From positions 33,823 to 97,822 of the forward strand of contig NZ_LMIJ01000010.1 of assembly GCF_001428665.1 (NCBI RefSeq): 64,000 nt of DNA, given 5' to 3'. The notes beneath the pieces are model-generated. The model had not been told where the DNA came from and made no database searches. It saw only the letters and a list, made by a program, of their open reading frames with translations. The translations under genes were made by a program, and so were the position numbers. The DNA is from Acidovorax sp. Root219 (GTDB taxonomy: Bacteria; Pseudomonadota; Gammaproteobacteria; Burkholderiales; Burkholderiaceae_C). Below, in pieces: positions 15,021-24,476 of the stretch (positions are counted from its first letter, which is position 1; the number at the start of each line of letters is the position of its first letter).

Positions 15021-15944
15021 TTACCAGGCGCGCGCCGGCTGCGCAAAGCCGCGCGGTGCCTGGCGCTCATCCTCGAAGGTAACCTCTTCCCAGGCATCGG
15101 GCTGGGACAGCAGTTCGCGCAGCAGCAGGTTGTTCATCGCATGGCCCGAGCGGAAGGCGCTGTAGGCCGCCAGCAGAGGCTTGCCGATGATGTACAGGTC
15201 GCCCATGGCGTCGAGGATCTTGTGCTTGACGAACTCGTCGTCGTAGCGCAGCCCATCGCTGTTGAGCACCTTGTAGTCGTCCATCACGATGGCGTTGTCC
15301 AGCCCGCCGCCCAGGGCCAGGCCGTTGGAGCGCATCATCTCCACATCGCGCGTGAAACCGAAGGTGCGTGCGCGTGCGATGTCGCGGCTGTAGTTGCCCT
15401 CGCCCAGGTCGAACTCCACACGCTGGCCAGTAGAGTCCACCGCAGGGTGGTCGAAATCGATCTCGAAGCTCAGCTTGTAGCCATGGTAGGGCACGAGGCG
15501 CGCCCACTTGGCCTGGGCACCACTGCCCTCGCGCACCTCCACCGGGCGCTTGACGCGGATGAAGCGCTTGGGGGCTTTCTGCAGCTCGATCCCCGCGCTT
15601 TGCAGCAGGAACACGAAGGAGGACGACGACCCGTCGAGGATGGGCACCTCTTCAGCCGTGATGTCCACGTACAGGTTATCGAGCCCCAGGCCGGCGCACG
15701 CCGACATGAGATGCTCCACGGTATGCACCTTGGCACTGCCGACCCCGATGGTGGAGGCCAGGCGCGTGTCCGTCACCGCGTCGGCCCGGATCGGGATGTC
15801 CACGGGCTGGGGCAGATCGACCCGGCGGAACACGATGCCGGTGTCGGGCTGCGCAGGCCGCAGGGTCAGCTCGACCCTCTGGCCACTGTGCAGCCCCACG
15901 CCGACGGCGCGGGTCAAGGTCTTGAGGGTGCGTTGCTGGAGCAT
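15021..15944 (-). CDS. lpxC: UDP-3-O-acyl-N-acetylglucosamine deacetylase LpxC
   Basis: Zinc enzyme for the committed step of lipid A synthesis in the cytoplasm. The 307-residue product has the two-domain LpxC fold, with [11 protein letters not shown] (zinc His), the [11 protein letters not shown] segment and [17 protein letters not shown] (zinc ligands and catalytic region). The ATG at 15944 gives the usual [21 protein letters not shown] start. In many betaproteobacteria lpxC lies close to ftsZ; here about 7.3 kb separates them. TACAAT lies a few bases upstream of the start, but no good -35 element was found. Confidence 0.96.
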
Positions 15945-16000
15945 TCTCGCATTGTAAAAGGGCGGGCCCGTCCCTGCTCGCCGCAAGACCATGGCAAGCC

Positions 16001-16735
16001 TTACGGCACCCGCCACAGTTTCCCGCAAAGGCCCCGATACACATAGGCACTGGAGGGTATTGCGGGGCTGCTGCCCTCTGGCTCCACGCTCACCGCCAGC
16101 TCCACCGCCTTGGCAAACACGGTTTCAGACGAGGCGCCCAGTTGCAGGTGCACGAAGGCCCCTTGCGGCAGCGGCGCCACGGGGCTGGCCTTGCCCGCCG
16201 CATCCAGCGACCACAGGTACAGCACCTGGCCGGCAGGCACCGGCACTGCGGCCACGCGCTTGATGTCCACCGTGCGGCCCTGCCGCAGGCTGGAGACGAT
16301 GAGCCCTGGGCGCCCGTCGGCCAGGCCCAGCACCCCCACATAGCTTTCGGGCAATTGGGTGGAGGCCGGTGCATCAGGCCCGCCGTGCTGCGCCTGCCAG
16401 AGCGACGGCAGCAGCACCCCCACCATCAGGCCCAGCGCCAAGGCGCCCGCCGGGGCTGGCTGCAACAACCGTTTCCACCACGGCACCCGCACCCCAGGGG
16501 CAGGAAACCCCAGGCGCTGCTCAATGGCGCGCCAGGTAGCGGGTGCCGGCGCCTGGGGTGGCAGGGCCAGCAGCGCGGGCGCCATGCGCTCGTTCCAGCG
16601 CGCCACGGCTTCGGCCAGATCGGGCCGCCGCGCGAGCAGCTTCTTGAAGCGGCGGCGGGCGCCCCCCTGCAGCGTGCCCAGGGCGTACTCGCCTGCCAGC
16701 AGGTCCACGAGCCGGGGGTTCTGGTGCCATTTCAT
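16001..16735 (-). CDS. RskA-type anti-sigma factor
   Basis: Predicted membrane-anchored inhibitor of the ECF sigma factor encoded just upstream. The 244-residue product has an N-terminal cytoplasmic anti-sigma region (about 1-75, [19 protein letters not shown]) without the HxxxCxxC zinc motif, so it is a zinc-less anti-sigma domain. One membrane segment lies at about 95-113. The periplasmic domain matches the RskA C-terminal family ([35 protein letters not shown]). The ATG overlaps the sigma gene stop by 4 bases. Release by regulated proteolysis is known for the family and only inferred here. Confidence 0.87.
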
Positions 16736-17325
16736 GCGCAGGACTCCATGCAGTCGCGCAGGCGCGCCAGGCTGCGGCGCATCCAGGCCTTGACCGTGCC
16801 CAGGGGGCGGGCCAGGCGCTGGGCCAGCTCGGCATGGGTGAGCCCTTCGTAGTAGACCAGCAGCAGCGCGCTGCGCGGTTCGCTGTCGATCTGGCCCATG
16901 CAGCGCCCCAGGCGCGAGCCGTCTTCCTCGGCCAGCAGCAGCTCCAGCGGCGAGCCGCCTTCGGCTGCGGCATCGTGCACCTGTTCCTCGCCATCGGCAT
17001 CGCGCCAGTGCAGCGGCGTTTCGGGGCGGCGCTTGCGCAGTGCGTCGATGGCGCGGTTGCGTGTGACCACGCACAGCCACGACAGGCTCAGCGCCTGCCC
17101 CGGCGCACCGGTCTGCGGCCGGTTCCACAGGTGCACGAAGACCTCCTGCAGCACGTCTTCGGCCAGGGCGCGGTCCTGCACCACGCGCACGGCCACCGCC
17201 AGCAGGCGGCTGGCCACCAGCTGGTACAGGCGCTGGAAGGCCGATGTGTCGCGCAGCACCACGCGCGACAGCAGCTGCGCCACGGCGTCGGGCAGCCCAT
17301 CGGCGGGCAATGCAGCGCCAGTCAT
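16732..17325 (-). CDS. ECF-family RNA polymerase sigma factor
   Basis: Extracytoplasmic function sigma factor of 197 residues, similar to the SigK/RskA-linked group. Region 2 is visible as LAEDVLQEVFVHLWNRP and SWLCVVTRNRAIDALRKRRP, and region 4 as YYEGLTHAELAQRLARPLGTVKAWMRRSL. It overlaps the upstream lipoprotein gene and the downstream anti-sigma gene by 4 bases each, so the three are translationally coupled. Target promoters are unknown; autoregulation of this operon is the simplest guess. Confidence 0.92.
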   Translation of the reverse strand: MTGAALPADGLPDAVAQLLSRVVLRDTSAFQRLYQLVASRLLAVAVRVVQDRALAEDVLQEVFVHLWNRPQTGAPGQALSLSWLCVVTRNRAIDALRKRRPETPLHWRDADGEEQVHDAAAEGGSPLELLLAEEDGSRLGRCMGQIDSEPRSALLLVYYEGLTHAELAQRLARPLGTVKAWMRRSLARLRDCMESCA

Positions 17326-18932
17326 CGTGGCACCGCGAAGAGCTGCACGGGCATGCCCGAAGCCTGTGCGAAACCGGCACGGATCTCGTCGAACGTGCCT
17401 ACGCGGATGTCCTCGAAGTCACCCCAGCGCAGCGGCGGCGGCAGGTCGCCATAGACCTCGCTCGGCGCATGCAGGCAGGCGTATTCGGCTGCGGGGTTGA
17501 GCACGAAGCGCTCGTTACCCGGCAGGCGCTGCGGCTTGCCCGGCACCATGCGCGGGTCGCGCGTGAAGCGGTTGGGAAAGATGCGCTGGATGCGCCGCGT
17601 CACCGGGTCTTGCGAGTAGCAGTACACATAGCCAGGGCGCAGCACCGCGATGTCCAGGCTGGCGCTGCCGCGCTGCGGTGCACCCAACGCCACGGCCAGG
17701 GCCGCAACCTCGGGCGCCGCAGCGGGTGCAGGCGGTGGCGGGGCCGCAGTTGCGCTGGCGTCGCCGGGGGCTGGTGCTGCGGCGGGCACGGCGGCCAATG
17801 CGGCGCCCGATGCGCGCGTGGAGGCATTGCGCGGCAGCGCCTTCAGCGGGCCGCGTGGCACCTTGGCGAGCACGAAGGAGCGAAAAAAACCCTCGTCCAA
17901 CGCGCCCTGGGCAGGCAGGCCGAGCGCCTGGCGGTAGCTGCGCAGCGCCGTGGCAAAGGCGGCGTCGGCCTGGTCGTCGATGGCGCCGTCGTAGTAGCGC
18001 CGCTCGCGCATGCGCTCCTTGTAGAAGGCGATGCGTTCGGCCTCGTCCATGGACAGGAACCAGTCGGCCAGCTCGCGCTGCACCTCGGCATCACTGTCGG
18101 TGGTGCCCAGGCACTGCCAGTAGGGCGCGCGAAGCAGCTTGCCCACCAGTTCCACGGCGGCCAGCTCGACCATGTTGCGCGCCGCCTGCGAGGGGCCGTC
18201 GGCGCGCGAGGTCGAGAACGAGAACACCACGCCGATGCCGGGGTTGACCAGTTGCGCCTGGCCATCGGCCGCGCTCGCGTCGCGGCTGGCCAGCACGGTG
18301 GTGTTCTTGGACGACACACCGGGCAACAGCGTCATGCTCGCAGTCTCCACCACGGCGGCGTCCAGGCCAAGCACCGAGAACTTGGTCTCGCTGCCGAAGC
18401 GCACGCCGAACACCGATTGCGCCAGCGTGGCGCCAAAGGAGCTGCCGTTCTTGAGCACCGATTCGTCGAGCTGGCTCACCGTGCCGCGGATGTTGTAGGC
18501 CGGCACCACACCGAAGGCGCTGGTGCGCTGCGCCTGCGCCAGCACCTGGGCCAGGTTCTGCTGGTCGCTGCCGAAGACCGACAGGCGCACCCCGCGCGAG
18601 CGCCGCGTCATGTCCGACACGGCCGAGGTCAGCATGTCGCGCGCCGAGATGGGCACCTTCTGCGTGGCGTCGCGAAACTCCTCCATCATCATGGTCACGT
18701 CGCGCGTGCCCATATCGAACATCATCTCGTCCATGCAGCGCAGCGCGGGCGTGAAGTTGGTGATGGTGCGCTGCGCCTTGTCCGTCGGGTTGGCCTGGGC
18801 GCGCACCTCGTTGAGGGCGGCACGGTCGGGTGCGCCGGCACAGCCGGCCAGAGCCGCCGCCAGGGCCAGCACGGCGGCCGCAGCGGCTGCGCGGCGTGCA
18901 CGGCTGTGCACGGGGGAGTGGTTGAAGGTCAT
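17322..18932 (-). CDS. CsgG-like lipoprotein with DUF4384-like C-terminus
   Basis: Predicted outer-membrane lipoprotein of 536 residues. A signal peptide ends in the lipobox LAGC (Cys31). Residues about 45-275 resemble the CsgG/HfaB family (curli and holdfast export), with ARDMLTSAVSDMTRRSRGVR and NIRGTVSQLDES. Residues 285-352 look like a peptidoglycan-binding-1 helical motif (RMRERRYYDGAIDDQADAAF). An Ala/Pro linker follows, then a DUF4384-like domain at 425-510 (LRPGYVYCYSQDP and RIFPNRFTRDPRMVPG). The stop overlaps the sigma factor start. Domain calls are by pattern; the function of the combination is unknown. Confidence 0.72.
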   Translation of the reverse strand: MTFNHSPVHSRARRAAAAAAVLALAAALAGCAGAPDRAALNEVRAQANPTDKAQRTITNFTPALRCMDEMMFDMGTRDVTMMMEEFRDATQKVPISARDMLTSAVSDMTRRSRGVRLSVFGSDQQNLAQVLAQAQRTSAFGVVPAYNIRGTVSQLDESVLKNGSSFGATLAQSVFGVRFGSETKFSVLGLDAAVVETASMTLLPGVSSKNTTVLASRDASAADGQAQLVNPGIGVVFSFSTSRADGPSQAARNMVELAAVELVGKLLRAPYWQCLGTTDSDAEVQRELADWFLSMDEAERIAFYKERMRERRYYDGAIDDQADAAFATALRSYRQALGLPAQGALDEGFFRSFVLAKVPRGPLKALPRNASTRASGAALAAVPAAAPAPGDASATAAPPPPAPAAAPEVAALAVALGAPQRGSASLDIAVLRPGYVYCYSQDPVTRRIQRIFPNRFTRDPRMVPGKPQRLPGNERFVLNPAAEYACLHAPSEVYGDLPPPLRWGDFEDIRVGTFDEIRAGFAQASGMPVQLFAVPR

Positions 18933-19023
18933 GGCAATCTCGGCAAAGGGGATGGGCGTGCACAGGCCAGCCCGCGGTGCGCACCCAAGCCGGTGCACGC
19001 ACAGCGCGGGCTGGTGCGGGATG

Positions 19024-19848
19024 TCAGCGGCCTACGGGGCGGGTGTAGGAAACGCGCACCCAGCGGTCCTCGTTGCCGACGGCGTCGGTGTCCAGGTCCC
19101 AGTCATTGCCGGGGCCGGCATGCTCGCCCTCGGGCTTGGTCGGGCCTTCGGTGGGGCCCTGGCAGCGGTCTTCACCGCGCTTGACCTCCAGGCGCCAGCC
19201 AATGCCGTTGACGTTCTGGCACATGGGCTTTTTCTTCTCGATCCTTTCGCAGCCCAGGCTGTCCTGGCTGCGGCCGGTGACGTCGGTGTAGCCATTGGGG
19301 CAGCTCACGCCGTTGGTCGGGTTCTTGCCCAGGGTGTAGTGCACCGGATAGCTCGCGGGCCACAGGTGAACGATCTTCTCGGCTACGAATTTGTCGGCAC
19401 CACCGGCGTTGACGACGCGTTGGTAGCGCCCTTCGTCAGGCCCGAGCAGCGCGGCCGGACCGACGGCAGTCAGGTAGCCCATGATGTCGCCCGGCAGACC
19501 CGACTGGCCCTTGAGCTTGGGCGGGCCGACCACCGGGTTCATGGCCGACGGCACGCTGGCCACGTCACCCGTCACGGCGGGCAGGCATTTGTCGGCGCCC
19601 GCCATCTGGATGGTCACGTAGTTGGGTTTGTTGGCAGGCGGGCAGATCGAGCCGCGCTCGAACACCAGGGTGACGCTGCACTTGAGCACGCCGCCGGCGC
19701 GGTTGACCTCGGTGTTGGCGGGGCATTCAGCGCGCTCGGGCACGTTGCCGGTGGCGCGCAGCAGGGAGGCCTTGTCAGCCCAGGCGGAGGTGGAAACGGC
19801 GGCACCGGCCAGGGTGAGGCAGGCGATGGCGATGGAAGAGAACTTCAT
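19024..19848 (-). CDS. Secreted Cys-rich protein of unknown function
   Basis: I do not recognise this family. The 274-residue product has a clear signal peptide (cleavage near SAWA) and eight cysteines in the mature part. Six fall into two similar modules of the form C-P-x13 to x15-C-x9 to x11-C (from Cys at ECPANTEV and at SCPNGYTD), suggesting disulfide-bonded repeats. The C-terminus is acidic (EGEHAGPGNDWDLDTDAVGN). It lies 91 bases upstream of the CsgG-like lipoprotein gene on the same strand, so the two are probably coexpressed. No enzyme motif is seen. Confidence 0.75.
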   Translation of the reverse strand: MKFSSIAIACLTLAGAAVSTSAWADKASLLRATGNVPERAECPANTEVNRAGGVLKCSVTLVFERGSICPPANKPNYVTIQMAGADKCLPAVTGDVASVPSAMNPVVGPPKLKGQSGLPGDIMGYLTAVGPAALLGPDEGRYQRVVNAGGADKFVAEKIVHLWPASYPVHYTLGKNPTNGVSCPNGYTDVTGRSQDSLGCERIEKKKPMCQNVNGIGWRLEVKRGEDRCQGPTEGPTKPEGEHAGPGNDWDLDTDAVGNEDRWVRVSYTRPVGR

Positions 19849-19908
19849 GGGGGTGTCCTTCGGGAAATGGGGGAGTGCAATCGGTGAAAGGCCTTGGGTG
19901 GGAACAGG

Positions 19909-20271
19909 TCAGGGCTTGGGCACCACGTGCCATGCGCCGCCCATGCCGTCGCCCAGGCGGTCGCCGGCCTTGGCATCGCTGGCGTAGTAGTACAGGGGCT
20001 TGCCCTTGAAGCTCCACTGGCGCGCACCACCGGCCTCGATGACGCCGAAGTCGCCCTCGGCCTTGGCACCGGCCTTGGCTGCAAAGGCCGGCCATGCGGC
20101 CAGACAGCCGCCGCTGCAGTTGCTCTTGCCAGCAGCGTCCTTGTCGAAGGTGTAGACCGTGCGGCCGGCGGCGTCGGTGAGCACGCCCTGCTGAAAGACG
20201 GGCTGCGCCTGCGCGGTCAGCGTGGCCAGGCCCAGGAGCAGTGCGGGTGCGAAGTACTTGAGCTGTTTCAT
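19909..20271 (-). CDS. Secreted PF03640/COG4315-type repeat protein
   Basis: Small periplasmic protein of 120 residues with a signal peptide (about 1-20, no lipobox Cys) and two copies of the short beta repeat of this family. The first is VLTDAAGRTVYTFDKDAAGK with a following CSGGCLAAWP, and the second is WSFKGKPLYYYASDAKAGD. The ATG at 20271 gives the best signal peptide. The biochemical role of the family is not established; members are often found with ECF sigma factors. It is the first gene of the minus-strand accessory group. Confidence 0.82.
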   Translation of the reverse strand: MKQLKYFAPALLLGLATLTAQAQPVFQQGVLTDAAGRTVYTFDKDAAGKSNCSGGCLAAWPAFAAKAGAKAEGDFGVIEAGGARQWSFKGKPLYYYASDAKAGDRLGDGMGGAWHVVPKP

Positions 20272-20567
20272 GTTGGTTCCTGTATCTCGGTAGGTCCGGT
20301 TGAAGAGCGCCACATGGCGTCCTGCTTGTGGAACGGCGCGGTGCAGCGTTTGGATGCAGGGGGCAGAAACTTTTTTTCCTGATCTCGACCTGCATCCATG
20401 CCGAGGCCCTGTGGCTCCTGCAGCACCGGGAAAATCGTAGGTTCCGCGCGCTTTGCCCGCACCCCATGAACATGGGAGGGGCGCCGCCGCGAAGATGGGA
20501 TGACGCGGCGCAGGCGGGCGCTAAGATGGCGCGACGCACCCCCGCCGACCTCCCTACCCTGCCATCC
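20272..20567. other. Divergent intergenic region of the accessory module
   Basis: This 296-base gap separates the minus-strand secreted-protein group from the plus-strand two-component genes and should contain both promoters. I see no confident -35/-10 pair. Notable items are a T-run at about 20370 and the related words GGATGCAGG and CTGCATCC at about 20350 and 20390. An ECF-type promoter for the minus-strand genes may be hidden here. Confidence 0.5.
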
Positions 20568-21263
20568 ATGAGCACACCCCGCTGGCGCGTCGTACTGATA
20601 GAGGACGATGCCGAGATGCGCAGATTCTTCGAAGGCTGCGTCACCGCCCACCCAGATCTGGAGCTGGCCGCTTCCTTCGGCATGCTGGCGCCTGCGCGCC
20701 GCTGGCTGGACGAGCACCCTGCCGACGTGCTGCTGACCGATCTGGCGCTGCCCGATGGCCATGGCCTGGCACTGCTGCAGCACGTGGTGCGCACGCAGCC
20801 GGCGTGCGAGGTGCTGGTGGTGTCGGTCTTCGGCGACGAGGACACCGTGATCGCCTGCGTGGAGGCCGGTGCCGTGGGCTACATACAGAAGGACTCCACC
20901 CCGGCGGACGTGGGCCGGATCATCGTCGGCGTGAAGCACGGCGAGTCGCCCATCTCGCCCATGATCGCGCGCAAGCTGCTGGCCCGGCTGCGCCAGCGGG
21001 GCGCGCGCGAGGAACCCCAGCCCCAGCCCGTGGACCCGGCACTGCCCAGCCTGGAACTCACGCCGCGCGAGTCGGACGTGCTGGAGCTGATCGCGCGCGG
21101 CTACTCGTACGCTGAGATCGCGCGCCTGCAGGACATCTCCAAGCACACGGTGCAAAGCCACATCAAGAACCTGTACAGCAAGCTGGCCGTGCACTCGCGT
21201 GGCGAAGCGGTCTTCGAGGCCAGCCGCATGGGCCTGCTGGACCGCCACCGTCGCGCCCCCTGA
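20568..21263 (+). CDS. NarL-family response regulator
   Basis: DNA-binding response regulator of 231 residues. The receiver domain has IEDDAEMRRF, the phosphoacceptor Asp at about residue 58 (LLTDLALPDGHG) and the conserved Lys in GYIQKDST. The C-terminal LuxR-type HTH is LTPRESDVLELIARGYSYAE and KHTVQSHIKNLYSKL. I chose ATG 20568; an ATG at 20526 would add 14 residues. It ends 13 bases before the sensor kinase gene, so the two form a two-component operon. Confidence 0.92.
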   Translation: MSTPRWRVVLIEDDAEMRRFFEGCVTAHPDLELAASFGMLAPARRWLDEHPADVLLTDLALPDGHGLALLQHVVRTQPACEVLVVSVFGDEDTVIACVEAGAVGYIQKDSTPADVGRIIVGVKHGESPISPMIARKLLARLRQRGAREEPQPQPVDPALPSLELTPRESDVLELIARGYSYAEIARLQDISKHTVQSHIKNLYSKLAVHSRGEAVFEASRMGLLDRHRRAP

Positions 21264-21276
21264 CAGTTCACCGGCC

Positions 21277-23130
21277 ATGCAGCGCACCCTCGGCCTGCCC
21301 GCGTCGTTCATCGGCCACCTGCTGTGCGGCCTGGTCCTTTGGAGCCTGCAGGTTCTGCCGGCGCTGGCGCAGGACGCTGCGCCGCCCCCGGGCGTGCAGG
21401 TGCTGCGCGACGCCGAACTGACGGTGCGCCTGCGCCAGAGCGCCGCCCAGACCACGACGGCCCACACACTTCCGCTGCACTGGGACGTGCTGCACCGGCG
21501 CAAGGCCGGCTGGGCCACTGCCACGCTGCGCTTCGACGCCATGGATGCACAGCGGCTGCAGCCCCAGGCCCTTCTGATCCCCCGGCTGGGCAATGCCTAC
21601 CGCATCTCGCTCAACGGGATGGAACTGGCCACTGGCGGCGAACTGCTGCTGCCCAACGACGGCTGGACCGGCCGGCGCCCGCTGTGGATCCGGCTGCCGG
21701 GCACGCTGCTGCAGGCGCACAACGTGCTGGAGATCCACATCCGTGCGGACTATCTGCGGCGCGCCGGCATCTCGTCCGTGCAGTTCGGGCCGGAGGCGGC
21801 GCTGCAGGGCACCTGGCACGCGCTGGAGTGGCAGCGCGTGACGCTGCCGCGCGCGGTCTCGCTGTTCAGCCTGGTGGTGGGCATCTTCTGCCTGCTGCTG
21901 TGGTGGCAGCAGCGCCAGGCGCTGTATGCGTTTGCGGCGCTGTGCGAGCTGGCATGGGCCTGCCGCGTCACCGCAGCCTGGCTGGAGGAGATCTTTCTGG
22001 CCTGGCCCGCCTGGTTCCAGGCCGTTCAGGGCCTGTTCTGGACCGGCTGCCTTGCCACCTACTGGCTCACGCGCACCGTCTGGGGGCCCCGGCCACGGGC
22101 AGAGCTGTATGTCGCGTCAGCGATCTTCGTGCTGTGCCCTTTTGCTGTAGCCGGCGGTGCCGACTGGGTGCTGGGCTGGACCGTCGTGCTGGTCGTGGCC
22201 TGGGCCGCACTGGTCCTGCGGCTGGGCTGGGAGTGCAGGCTCACCCGCGACAGCCCGCGGCTGTGGATGCTGGTGGCCCTCGGTGTCTGCTGGGCGGCCC
22301 TGGTGCGCGACATCGCGGCCGCACGCCTGGCGCCTGCACAGTACATGGACGGCGGCTGGACGCAATGGGCAGCCGCCTTCGCTGGCGTGGCCGTGCTGGC
22401 CATCGTGGGGCAACGCTTTCAGCAGGCGCGCAATGCGCTGATCAACCTCACGGCGTCGCTGGAGCAGCGCGTTCTGCAGCGCGAGGAGAAGCTGGCCGAG
22501 CAGCACCAGGCGCTGCGCAAGCTCGAGCGCATCAGCGCCAAGTCCGAGGAGCGCGCACGCATCCTGCGCGACATGCACGACGGCGCGGGCGCCCACCTGA
22601 TCACGGCCATGCGCCAGCTCGAAGGCGGGGTGGCATCGCAGGCCGAGGTGATGCAGACGCTGCGCGAGTCGCTGGACCAGTTGCGCCTGTCGGTGGACGC
22701 GATGTCCTTGCCCAACGGCGACGTCAACGCACTGCTGGCCAGCCTGCGTTTCCGCCTGGAGCAGCGCATCCGCGATTCGGGTCTGGAGCTGCTGTGGGAC
22801 GTGGAGCTGCTGCCCCTGTGGCCCGACAGCAGCGAGGAGGCCATGCGCCACCTGCAGTACATCGTGTTCGAGGCCATCTCCAACGTGCTGCAACACGCCC
22901 ACGCGCGGCAGCTGGCACTGACCGCCCGCGCCGACGGCCAGGCCATCACCATCCACCTGCGCGACAACGGCGTGGGCAGGCAGGACGGCGCCTGCGGCAA
23001 TGGCCTGCGCACCATGCACGAACGCGCCGCCCTGATCGGTGCCGTGCTGGAGCTGCGCCAGGAAGGCGACGCGGGCACCACGGTGTGCCTGTCCTTGCCG
23101 CTGGGCGCGCCTGCACCTGCACAGGCCTGA
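21277..23130 (+). CDS. HPK7-type sensor histidine kinase with 7TM-like sensor
   Basis: Membrane sensor kinase of 617 residues. A signal peptide is followed by a periplasmic beta domain (about 30-190, AYRISLNGMELATGGELLLP and WIRLPGTLL) and roughly seven membrane helices (about 190-375), an arrangement like 7TMR-DISM sensors. A coiled coil leads to the dimerisation segment with the phosphorylated His near residue 434 (LRDMHDGAGAHL) and a short HATPase with N-box FEAISNVLQHAHA. This NarX/DegS-like class pairs with NarL regulators such as the one upstream. The signal is unknown; the neighbours suggest envelope or redox cues. Confidence 0.87.
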   Translation: MQRTLGLPASFIGHLLCGLVLWSLQVLPALAQDAAPPPGVQVLRDAELTVRLRQSAAQTTTAHTLPLHWDVLHRRKAGWATATLRFDAMDAQRLQPQALLIPRLGNAYRISLNGMELATGGELLLPNDGWTGRRPLWIRLPGTLLQAHNVLEIHIRADYLRRAGISSVQFGPEAALQGTWHALEWQRVTLPRAVSLFSLVVGIFCLLLWWQQRQALYAFAALCELAWACRVTAAWLEEIFLAWPAWFQAVQGLFWTGCLATYWLTRTVWGPRPRAELYVASAIFVLCPFAVAGGADWVLGWTVVLVVAWAALVLRLGWECRLTRDSPRLWMLVALGVCWAALVRDIAAARLAPAQYMDGGWTQWAAAFAGVAVLAIVGQRFQQARNALINLTASLEQRVLQREEKLAEQHQALRKLERISAKSEERARILRDMHDGAGAHLITAMRQLEGGVASQAEVMQTLRESLDQLRLSVDAMSLPNGDVNALLASLRFRLEQRIRDSGLELLWDVELLPLWPDSSEEAMRHLQYIVFEAISNVLQHAHARQLALTARADGQAITIHLRDNGVGRQDGACGNGLRTMHERAALIGAVLELRQEGDAGTTVCLSLPLGAPAPAQA

Positions 23131-23161
23131 TACCCTCGGCAATCCCCGGCCATCGGCCATG

Positions 23162-23216: not shown

Positions 23217-24476
23217 TCAATCCGCCTGCTTGCGCAGGAAGGCCGGGATTTCCAGGTCGTCCATGCCGCCCGAGGACAGCGCGTCCACGCGGGCGGCGGC
23301 CTGCGTGCGGTTGGTGCGCCACACGCTGGGCACCGACATGCTGCCGTAGTCGGCCTGCGAGCTGCTGCTGCCGCCATGGCCGGTCTGGCCCGAGGGCACG
23401 CCCATGGCACTGCCCATCGCACCGGCAACGCCTGCCACGGGGATCTGGTAGGCCATGTTGTCGGTGCCGGTGCGCAGGCCGCCCTGCACCACCGAGATGG
23501 GCTGGCGGCGGGCGTTCTGGCGCGACAGGCCGGTCGCGACCACGGTCACACGGATCTCGTCGCCCAGGGTGTCGTCGTAGGCGGCGCCAAAGATCACGTG
23601 CGCATCCTTGGACGCGTAGGCGTTGATGGTGTTCATCGCCAGGCGCGACTCGGACAGCTTGAGGCTGCCCTTGCTGGCCGTGACCAGCACCAGCACACCC
23701 TTGGCACCCGACAGGTCGATGCCTTCGAGCAGCGGGCAGGCGATGGCCTGCTCGGCTGCGATGCGGGCGCGGTCGGGGCCGCTGGCCGTGGCCGTGCCCA
23801 TCATGGCCTTGCCGGGCTCGCCCATCACGGTGCGCACGTCTTCGAAGTCGACGTTCACCTGGCCGTACTCGTTGATGATTTCGGCAATGCCGCCCACGGC
23901 GTTCTTGAGCACGTCGTTGGCGTGCGCGAAGGCTTCGTCCTGGGTGATGTCGTCGCCCAGCACTTCCAGCAGCTTCTCATTGAGCACGACGATCAGCGAA
24001 TCGACGTTGGCTTCGAGTTCGGCCAGGCCGTTGTCGGCGTTGGTCATGCGGCGCCCGCCCTCCCAGTCGAAGGGCTTGGTGACCACGCCCACGGTGAGGA
24101 TGCCCATTTCCTTGGCGATGCGCGCGATCACGGGCGCTGCGCCCGTGCCCGTGCCGCCGCCCATGCCGGCGGTGATGAACAGCATGTGCGCGCCGTCGAT
24201 GGCCGCGCGGATGTCCTCGGCTGCGGCTTCGGCTGCGTCACGGCCCTTGTCGGGCTTGCTGCCGGCGCCCAGGCCGCTGGCACCGAGCTGGATCACGCTG
24301 TGCGCGGAGCTGCGCGTGAGGGCCTGCGCATCGGTATTGGCACAGACGAATTCCACGCCCTGCACACTGCGGGCGATCATGTGCTCGACGGCGTTGCTGC
24401 CGCCGCCGCCCACGCCGATCACCTTGATCTGGGTGCCCTGGTTGAAAGTTTCGGCTTCGATCATTTCGATGGACAT
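23217..24476 (-). CDS. ftsZ: Cell division protein FtsZ
   Basis: Tubulin-like GTPase that forms the Z ring. The 419-residue product has the GGGGSNAVEHM start of the GTP fold, the tubulin signature AGMGGGTGTGAAP, the T7 catalytic loop region (NVDFEDVRTVMGEPG), a variable Gly/Ser linker and the C-terminal FtsA/ZipA-binding peptide DDLEIPAFLRKQ. ATG 24476 is chosen for the family-typical start. A 154-base gap separates it from ftsA and may hold an internal promoter. Last gene of the cluster. Confidence 0.98.
   Translation of the reverse strand: MSIEMIEAETFNQGTQIKVIGVGGGGSNAVEHMIARSVQGVEFVCANTDAQALTRSSAHSVIQLGASGLGAGSKPDKGRDAAEAAAEDIRAAIDGAHMLFITAGMGGGTGTGAAPVIARIAKEMGILTVGVVTKPFDWEGGRRMTNADNGLAELEANVDSLIVVLNEKLLEVLGDDITQDEAFAHANDVLKNAVGGIAEIINEYGQVNVDFEDVRTVMGEPGKAMMGTATASGPDRARIAAEQAIACPLLEGIDLSGAKGVLVLVTASKGSLKLSESRLAMNTINAYASKDAHVIFGAAYDDTLGDEIRVTVVATGLSRQNARRQPISVVQGGLRTGTDNMAYQIPVAGVAGAMGSAMGVPSGQTGHGGSSSSQADYGSMSVPSVWRTNRTQAAARVDALSSGGMDDLEIPAFLRKQAD

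Follow-up and report, generated by a model that had tools for sequence, protein, structure and literature searches.

A predicted ECF sigma factor operon and a probably separate two-component pair in a putative insertion between ftsZ and lpxC of two Acidovorax genomes

Seven genes lie between lpxC and ftsZ in the window, the stretch of 64,000 nucleotides from the ~6.8-Mb genome of Acidovorax sp. Root219 that was analyzed in this work, and the question that this locus raises is whether these genes act as one unit. An earlier note on this DNA had placed the seven genes at 16001-23130, where all of them were found again, and had joined them into a single envelope-sensing unit with two inputs. The best explanation, to which we assign a probability of about 0.75, is that the minus-strand genes would form a single, self-activating ECF sigma/anti-sigma operon, that the plus-strand response regulator (RR) and histidine kinase (HK) would be a separate system, and that the block would have been inserted in an ancestor.

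Gene content of the locus

The features of the locus are compiled in Table 1. The sigma factor is assigned to the ECF type by its regions 2 and 4 and its match to the sigma70-ECF profile. Its neighbor is classed as an RskA-type membrane anti-sigma factor on the basis of an RskA_C match above cut-off, a single predicted span, and a gene that overlaps that of the sigma factor by 4 bases; matches of NCBIfam anti-sigma models to this protein were below their cut-offs. The serial 4-base overlaps of the lipoprotein, sigma, and anti-sigma genes that had been pointed out previously were confirmed, both being exact ATGA overlaps (17322-17325 and 16732-16735, respectively). A divergent intergenic region of 296 bp separates the PF03640 gene from the RR gene. 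The lipoproteins of the window and of Acidovorax sp. A1169 (G265) show a 99% match, and dN/dS values between the two strains are 0.02-0.22 for all seven genes, so all seven look maintained.

Table 1. Features of the ftsZ-lpxC region in the window
Feature	Position	Strand	Evidence or remark
lpxC	15021-15944	minus	flank of block
Inserted block between ftsZ and lpxC	15996..23153 (approximate borders)		empty site of G005 and G032 aligned to both ends
Anti-sigma factor, RskA_C	16001..16735	minus	PF10099, E 2.3e-8; one membrane segment predicted by hydropathy, residues 90-108
ECF sigma factor, regions 2 + 4	16732..17325	minus	PF04542, 7.5e-13; PF08281, 1.3e-11; TIGR02937 above cut-off
Predicted outer-membrane lipoprotein, lipobox Cys31	17322..18932	minus	DUF4384 in C part, PF14326, 4e-7
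Lipoprotein middle part, PG_binding_1-like	within 17322..18932	minus	PF01471, 0.012, below cut-off
Secreted 8-cysteine protein, 274 aa, two spaced groups of four Cys	19024..19848	minus	8 invariant Cys
Small secreted PF03640 protein	19909..20271	minus	PF03640, 1.1e-24, two stretches
Predicted ECF promoter, TGCATCC-N16-CGT	20333..20358	minus	upstream comparison among loci
LuxR/NarL-type RR, neighbor outside module	20568..21263	plus	PF00072, PF00196
Membrane HK, HATPase_c, neighbor outside module	21277..23130	plus	PF02518, 2.2e-6; HisKA_3 below cut-off; hydropathy
ftsZ	23217-24476	minus	other flank of block

Mycobacterium tuberculosis SigK/RskA represents this type of ECF sigma/anti-sigma pair and belongs to group ECF19 (PMC7406223). 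As in SigK-RskA, an ECF sigma factor adjoins an RskA_C anti-sigma factor with one predicted span in the window, and the N-terminal helix of the latter resembles, by eye, the AS19-1 motif given in the same source (PMC7406223). Unlike SigK-RskA, the window pair keeps company with genes for a PF03640 protein, an 8-Cys protein, and a DUF4384 lipoprotein.

The ftsZ-lpxC gap in the genus

The ftsZ-lpxC interval was measurable in 39 of the 47 genus genomes; in the other eight, the two genes are on different contigs (six genomes) or far apart (one), or lpxC had no match (one). Fifteen intervals are short (131-432 bp), 21 measure 2.1-2.4 kb, those of the window and A1169 measure 7.3 kb, and that of G267 measures ~46 kb. 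Each of the 21 mid-sized intervals contains one minus-strand ORF of 586-643 codons, and the two that were domain-scanned, from five read, are both chemoreceptors. The large gap of G267 (L129-L131; 10 ORFs scanned) holds conjugation genes, including T4SS parts, and efflux genes, including that of a heavy-metal-type P-type ATPase; a tyrosine integrase gene adjoins ftsZ.

The two genomes nearest to the window by both ftsZ and lpxC, G005 and G032, have 131 bp in the gap, and alignment to this empty site places the block borders just past the ftsZ terminator and ~50 bp before lpxC. Close sigma, HK, and PF03640 genes were detected in only the window genome (G000) and A1169 among the 47 genus genomes, the next best matches being 40, 38, and 50% identical, and the lipoprotein had no match above 30% in 35 genus relatives, a set that excludes A1169. 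None of the seven genes of the block encodes an integrase, and a repeat search covered three short stretches of the block. Judged from these comparisons, the whole block (~15996-23153) is most likely an insertion, and the gap is a variable slot across the genus. The simplest reading is that the block was gained, by one or two insertions, in a common ancestor of the two Acidovorax species, in which case its entry point would be flanked by the ftsZ terminator and the lpxC promoter. The comparison of this interval that had been proposed earlier found the block in 2 of the 39 measured genus genomes, and the location is not one that the relatives of the module have in common. The gap being variable in Acidovorax, position there says little on function.

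In 38 of 38 genus intervals (window 15945-15956, L092-L128), the lpxC start codon is preceded by a TAnAAT hexamer, the end of which is 6 nt away from it (5 in two cases), an arrangement suggesting that the lpxC transcript may be leaderless.

The minus-strand module and its predicted promoter

A contig search with an alignment of five lipoproteins, in which two peptide patterns were used, identified close lipoprotein relatives at at least nine loci. These are A1169 and eight other genomes, namely, two Methylibium, one Rubrivivax, one Rhodoferax, one Burkholderiaceae, two uncultured betaproteobacterial MAGs, and Piscinibacter sakaiensis 201-F6, all but the last (7 of 8) being MAGs. In these eight genomes, the lipoprotein gene is preceded by that of the Cys protein in seven (missing at L085), the sigma and anti-sigma genes lie downstream in six (missing at L085 and L089), and the PF03640 gene precedes in three (L084, L085, and L090). 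All five module genes occur in the window order at L090, and two ORFs are situated between the PF03640 and Cys genes at L084. The Cys matches at L086, L089, and L091 concern sequences that are also in the profile, and those at L084, L087, L088, and L090 concern sequences outside it. Partial arrangements were found as well: L063 and L066 have PF03640-sigma-anti-sigma without the lipoprotein, and L065 has sigma-anti-sigma alone. The window genome itself contains a distant lipoprotein paralogue (L022/L082 on C11; 27%) with DUF4384 and PG_binding_1, and a plasmid search gave no match to the Cys protein and only two partial matches to the lipoprotein, both in Azospirillum.

The sequence TGCATCC-N16-CGT precedes the first module gene in the sigma-bearing loci; it is exact in nine of ten (window, L084, L086, L087, L088, L090, L063, L066, and L065) and has one mismatch in the tenth (L091). 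No exact copy occurs anywhere in the stretches of the two sigma-less loci L085 and L089. The window site (20358-20333) starts 87 bp upstream of the PF03640 ATG, and no other match occurs in the 64 kb, for which chance predicts a mean of 0.29 sites, with 25 of 100 shuffles having at least one. The motif was first spotted by eye, and a count of all 6-mer/spacer/3-mer words done afterwards put TGCATC-N17-CGT at the top, with 9 of 10 loci. In 100 Markov shuffles, no word pair was present in more than 4 of the 10 loci; these shuffles treat the ten loci as unrelated, so that common descent could account for some of the sharing. The genome of L064/L087 has three sites, one each in front of the Cys and lipoprotein genes and one behind the anti-sigma gene. 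At eight more distant sigma loci, no exact site was found in ~500 bp upstream, and one of them (L076) has a relaxed match ~91 bp upstream. These data support the view that the lipoprotein, sigma, anti-sigma, Cys-rich, and PF03640 genes form a conserved module with a common upstream site. On general knowledge of ECF systems, we read TGCATCC-N16-CGT as a predicted autoregulated ECF promoter.

Genome-wide counts of the pattern were rejected as evidence for a regulon: 78 matches, versus 17 for the reversed pattern, were obtained in 13 genomes, but the sister genomes without the sigma factor (G005, 9; G032, 6) have as many matches as the window genome (4) and A1169 (8). Since these sigma-less genomes hold as many matches, only the position before the operon is telling. 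The leader just past the predicted start (20280-20340 on the minus strand of the window) is partly conserved with L084, L063, L066, and L090; by eye, it may contain a short inverted repeat, the letters of which vary among loci.

Two other readings of the minus-strand genes were weighed. Depending on the species, the ftsZ-lpxC gap is short or is occupied by this island, a conjugative element, or a gene of the chemoreceptor type, which would agree with a permissive gap that collects unrelated cargo, the minus-strand genes being loosely linked chance neighbors too. This is very unlikely, given that these genes stay linked elsewhere in other genera and with a common upstream site; the idea suits the two-component pair but not the operon. 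According to the second reading, the purpose of the operon is to link lpxC expression via read-through to the sigma factor, for which the common strand and the end of the anti-sigma gene 56 bp before lpxC could be invoked. We consider it extremely improbable: neither lpxC nor ftsZ is present in the stretches of 10.7-17.6 kb around the module in the eight non-A1169 genomes, and the TAnAAT hexamer lies shortly ahead of the lpxC start codon in all the intervals, those of the window and A1169 included.

For the self-activating operon, the following sequence of events is proposed. The sigma factor would be held by the membrane-anchored RskA-type anti-sigma factor, and an envelope signal would lead to its release. 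The released sigma factor would then initiate transcription from the TGCATCC-N16-CGT site in front of the PF03640 gene, which would give rise to the small secreted protein, the 8-cysteine secreted protein, and the outer-membrane lipoprotein, plus more sigma and anti-sigma factor. For an ECF system with putative surface proteins, the locus provides a defined predicted promoter together with a set of genes.

Exported proteins and possible alternative regulators

The lipobox cysteine C31 is invariant in 25 of 25 lipoprotein sequences. Among ten close members, Pfam searches at an E limit of 5 detected DUF4384 in all, PG_binding_1 in six (best E 0.0002), and a weak CsgG match in three (best E 0.019). 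The window protein had been described as a CsgG-like/DUF4384 lipoprotein; the lipobox and DUF4384 were retrieved, but no CsgG domain was found in it by Pfam, and PF03783 had no match in the window genome at E 0.1. Alignment of the lipoprotein profile to one CsgG protein gave a plausible aligned region at a probability of only 3.0%. The lipobox is shared with CsgG-family outer-membrane lipoproteins, whereas the CsgG match is weak and confined to three members; the window protein is itself below detection and carries PG-binding-like and DUF4384 parts, and its N part is possibly CsgG-like, as weakly suggested by these matches.

In the Cys protein, C42, C57, C69, C88, C183, C200, C210, and C229 are invariant in 9 of 9 aligned sequences, one of which is the near-identical A1169 copy, and no Pfam match was obtained. 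The PF03640 protein contains two matched stretches and a CxxxC. At L077 (9654-12348), a secretin gene is located 22 bp after a relative of the Cys-protein gene. Sequence searches of the PDB with the lipoprotein, the PF03640 protein, and the Cys protein returned no convincing match. The structure models obtained for the lipoprotein and the Cys protein were of low confidence (mean pLDDT of 54.8 and 63.4), and Foldseek searches with both gave no match at E 0.001. In the open-access literature, we found no paper linking ECF or sigma factors with DUF4384, PF03640, or COG4315, none joining DUF4384 with CsgG, none on COG4315, and none combining ECF, ftsZ, lpxC, and Acidovorax, absences that carry little weight. 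The domain names, from which the functions of these proteins are deduced, suggest a surface or export role, and the exported proteins probably act jointly at the cell surface; that the Cys-rich protein is exported or anchored by the lipoprotein is a guess.

Some relatives have a different type of regulator beside the module. L085 and L086 encode AAA/TPR proteins of 1034 and 1072 aa that are 48% identical to each other, and L089 encodes a 1017-aa AAA/TPR protein, the N-terminal part of which is a relative of its L086 counterpart (36% over 135 columns). Pfam detected no BTAD in these three proteins. The L089 protein is 32% identical over ~850 columns to a BTAD-bearing protein at L079, where BTAD, AAA, and TPR are combined in a protein encoded beside two Cys genes. 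The L079 protein resembles SARP (AfsR-like) regulators in this architecture, and those of L085, L086, and L089 are tied to it by this chain of similarity; in contrast, no such regulator was seen at the window locus. The binding sites of SARP proteins are direct repeats with a pitch of about 11 bp. At L085, L086, and L089, two GAGACG words form a pair with 11-bp spacing between the AAA/TPR gene and the module, and at L085 a small ORF separates this pair from PF03640. At L084, the contig of which begins close upstream, there are three words of this kind, GAGATG being one; the pair is absent from the other 10 of the 14 stretches scanned, including the window.

With a SARP-like gene and 11-bp GAGACG repeats upstream in three relatives, control may therefore be exchangeable, with exported proteins of a similar kind apparently governed by a sigma factor, by a SARP-like regulator, or, as at L086, by both. 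This is a natural case of similar exported-protein genes beside two different regulator types. A tentative and rather doubtful extension is that the PF03640, 8-Cys, and CsgG-like lipoprotein genes constitute a cassette for surface assembly that can be exchanged; in it, the lipoprotein would export or anchor the Cys protein, and control by the ECF pair or the SARP-like regulator would be swapped or stacked between genera.

The two-component pair

The RR and HK possess a receiver, an HTH, and a kinase ATPase domain, and with its receiver, GerE, and HATPase_c domains, the pair resembles NarL/LuxR two-component systems with membrane kinases. The kinase had been considered 7TM-like, but none of the 7TM Pfam models matched it, and hydropathy analysis at one fixed threshold gives five segments, one of which is N-terminal.

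That all seven genes could be one envelope-sensing unit, with the two-component system and the sigma factor converging on one response, derives some appeal from their joint presence in both Acidovorax genomes, apparently as one inserted block, and from the common divergent intergenic region, which holds an inverted pair with TGCATCC. We regard it as unlikely. The A1169 locus repeats that of the window, the two-component pair included, and is the sole one of the nine loci with the pair beside the lipoprotein gene; in the 10.7-17.6 kb around the module in the eight other genomes, neither RR nor HK was found (0/8). Co-occurrence of the seven families, which had been put forward earlier as a test, is thus not seen outside the near-identical A1169 locus. 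Conversely, none of the five module genes is present in the ~1.5-kb flanks of the seven closest RR-HK pairs (L028-L034) or in a 19.5-kb stretch of G122 (L080). A plus-strand promoter of the same sigma factor for RR-HK was also considered and discarded: its TGCATCC is without CGT at N16 and the letters differ in A1169. The predicted sigma promoter is oriented toward the minus-strand operon.

A separate system within the same inserted block is the best explanation for the RR and kinase, although the sigma module and the pair could be functionally linked in the window strain and A1169. Of the unit proposed earlier, the linkage of the five minus-strand genes holds in relatives and that of the RR and HK does not; the operon had been correctly seen and the sensor over-joined to it.

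HK relatives are common, being present in 71 of 120 family genomes at E 1e-20. At 23 of the 29 HK loci besides that of the window, an RR relative adjoins the kinase gene, the exceptions being L035, L041, L046, L049, L052, and L054. At three of the latter, L049, L052, and L054, all from other genera, a different kinase is encoded between ftsZ and lpxC on the ftsZ strand; that of L049 was scanned and consists of 7TMR-DISM_7TM and HATPase_c.
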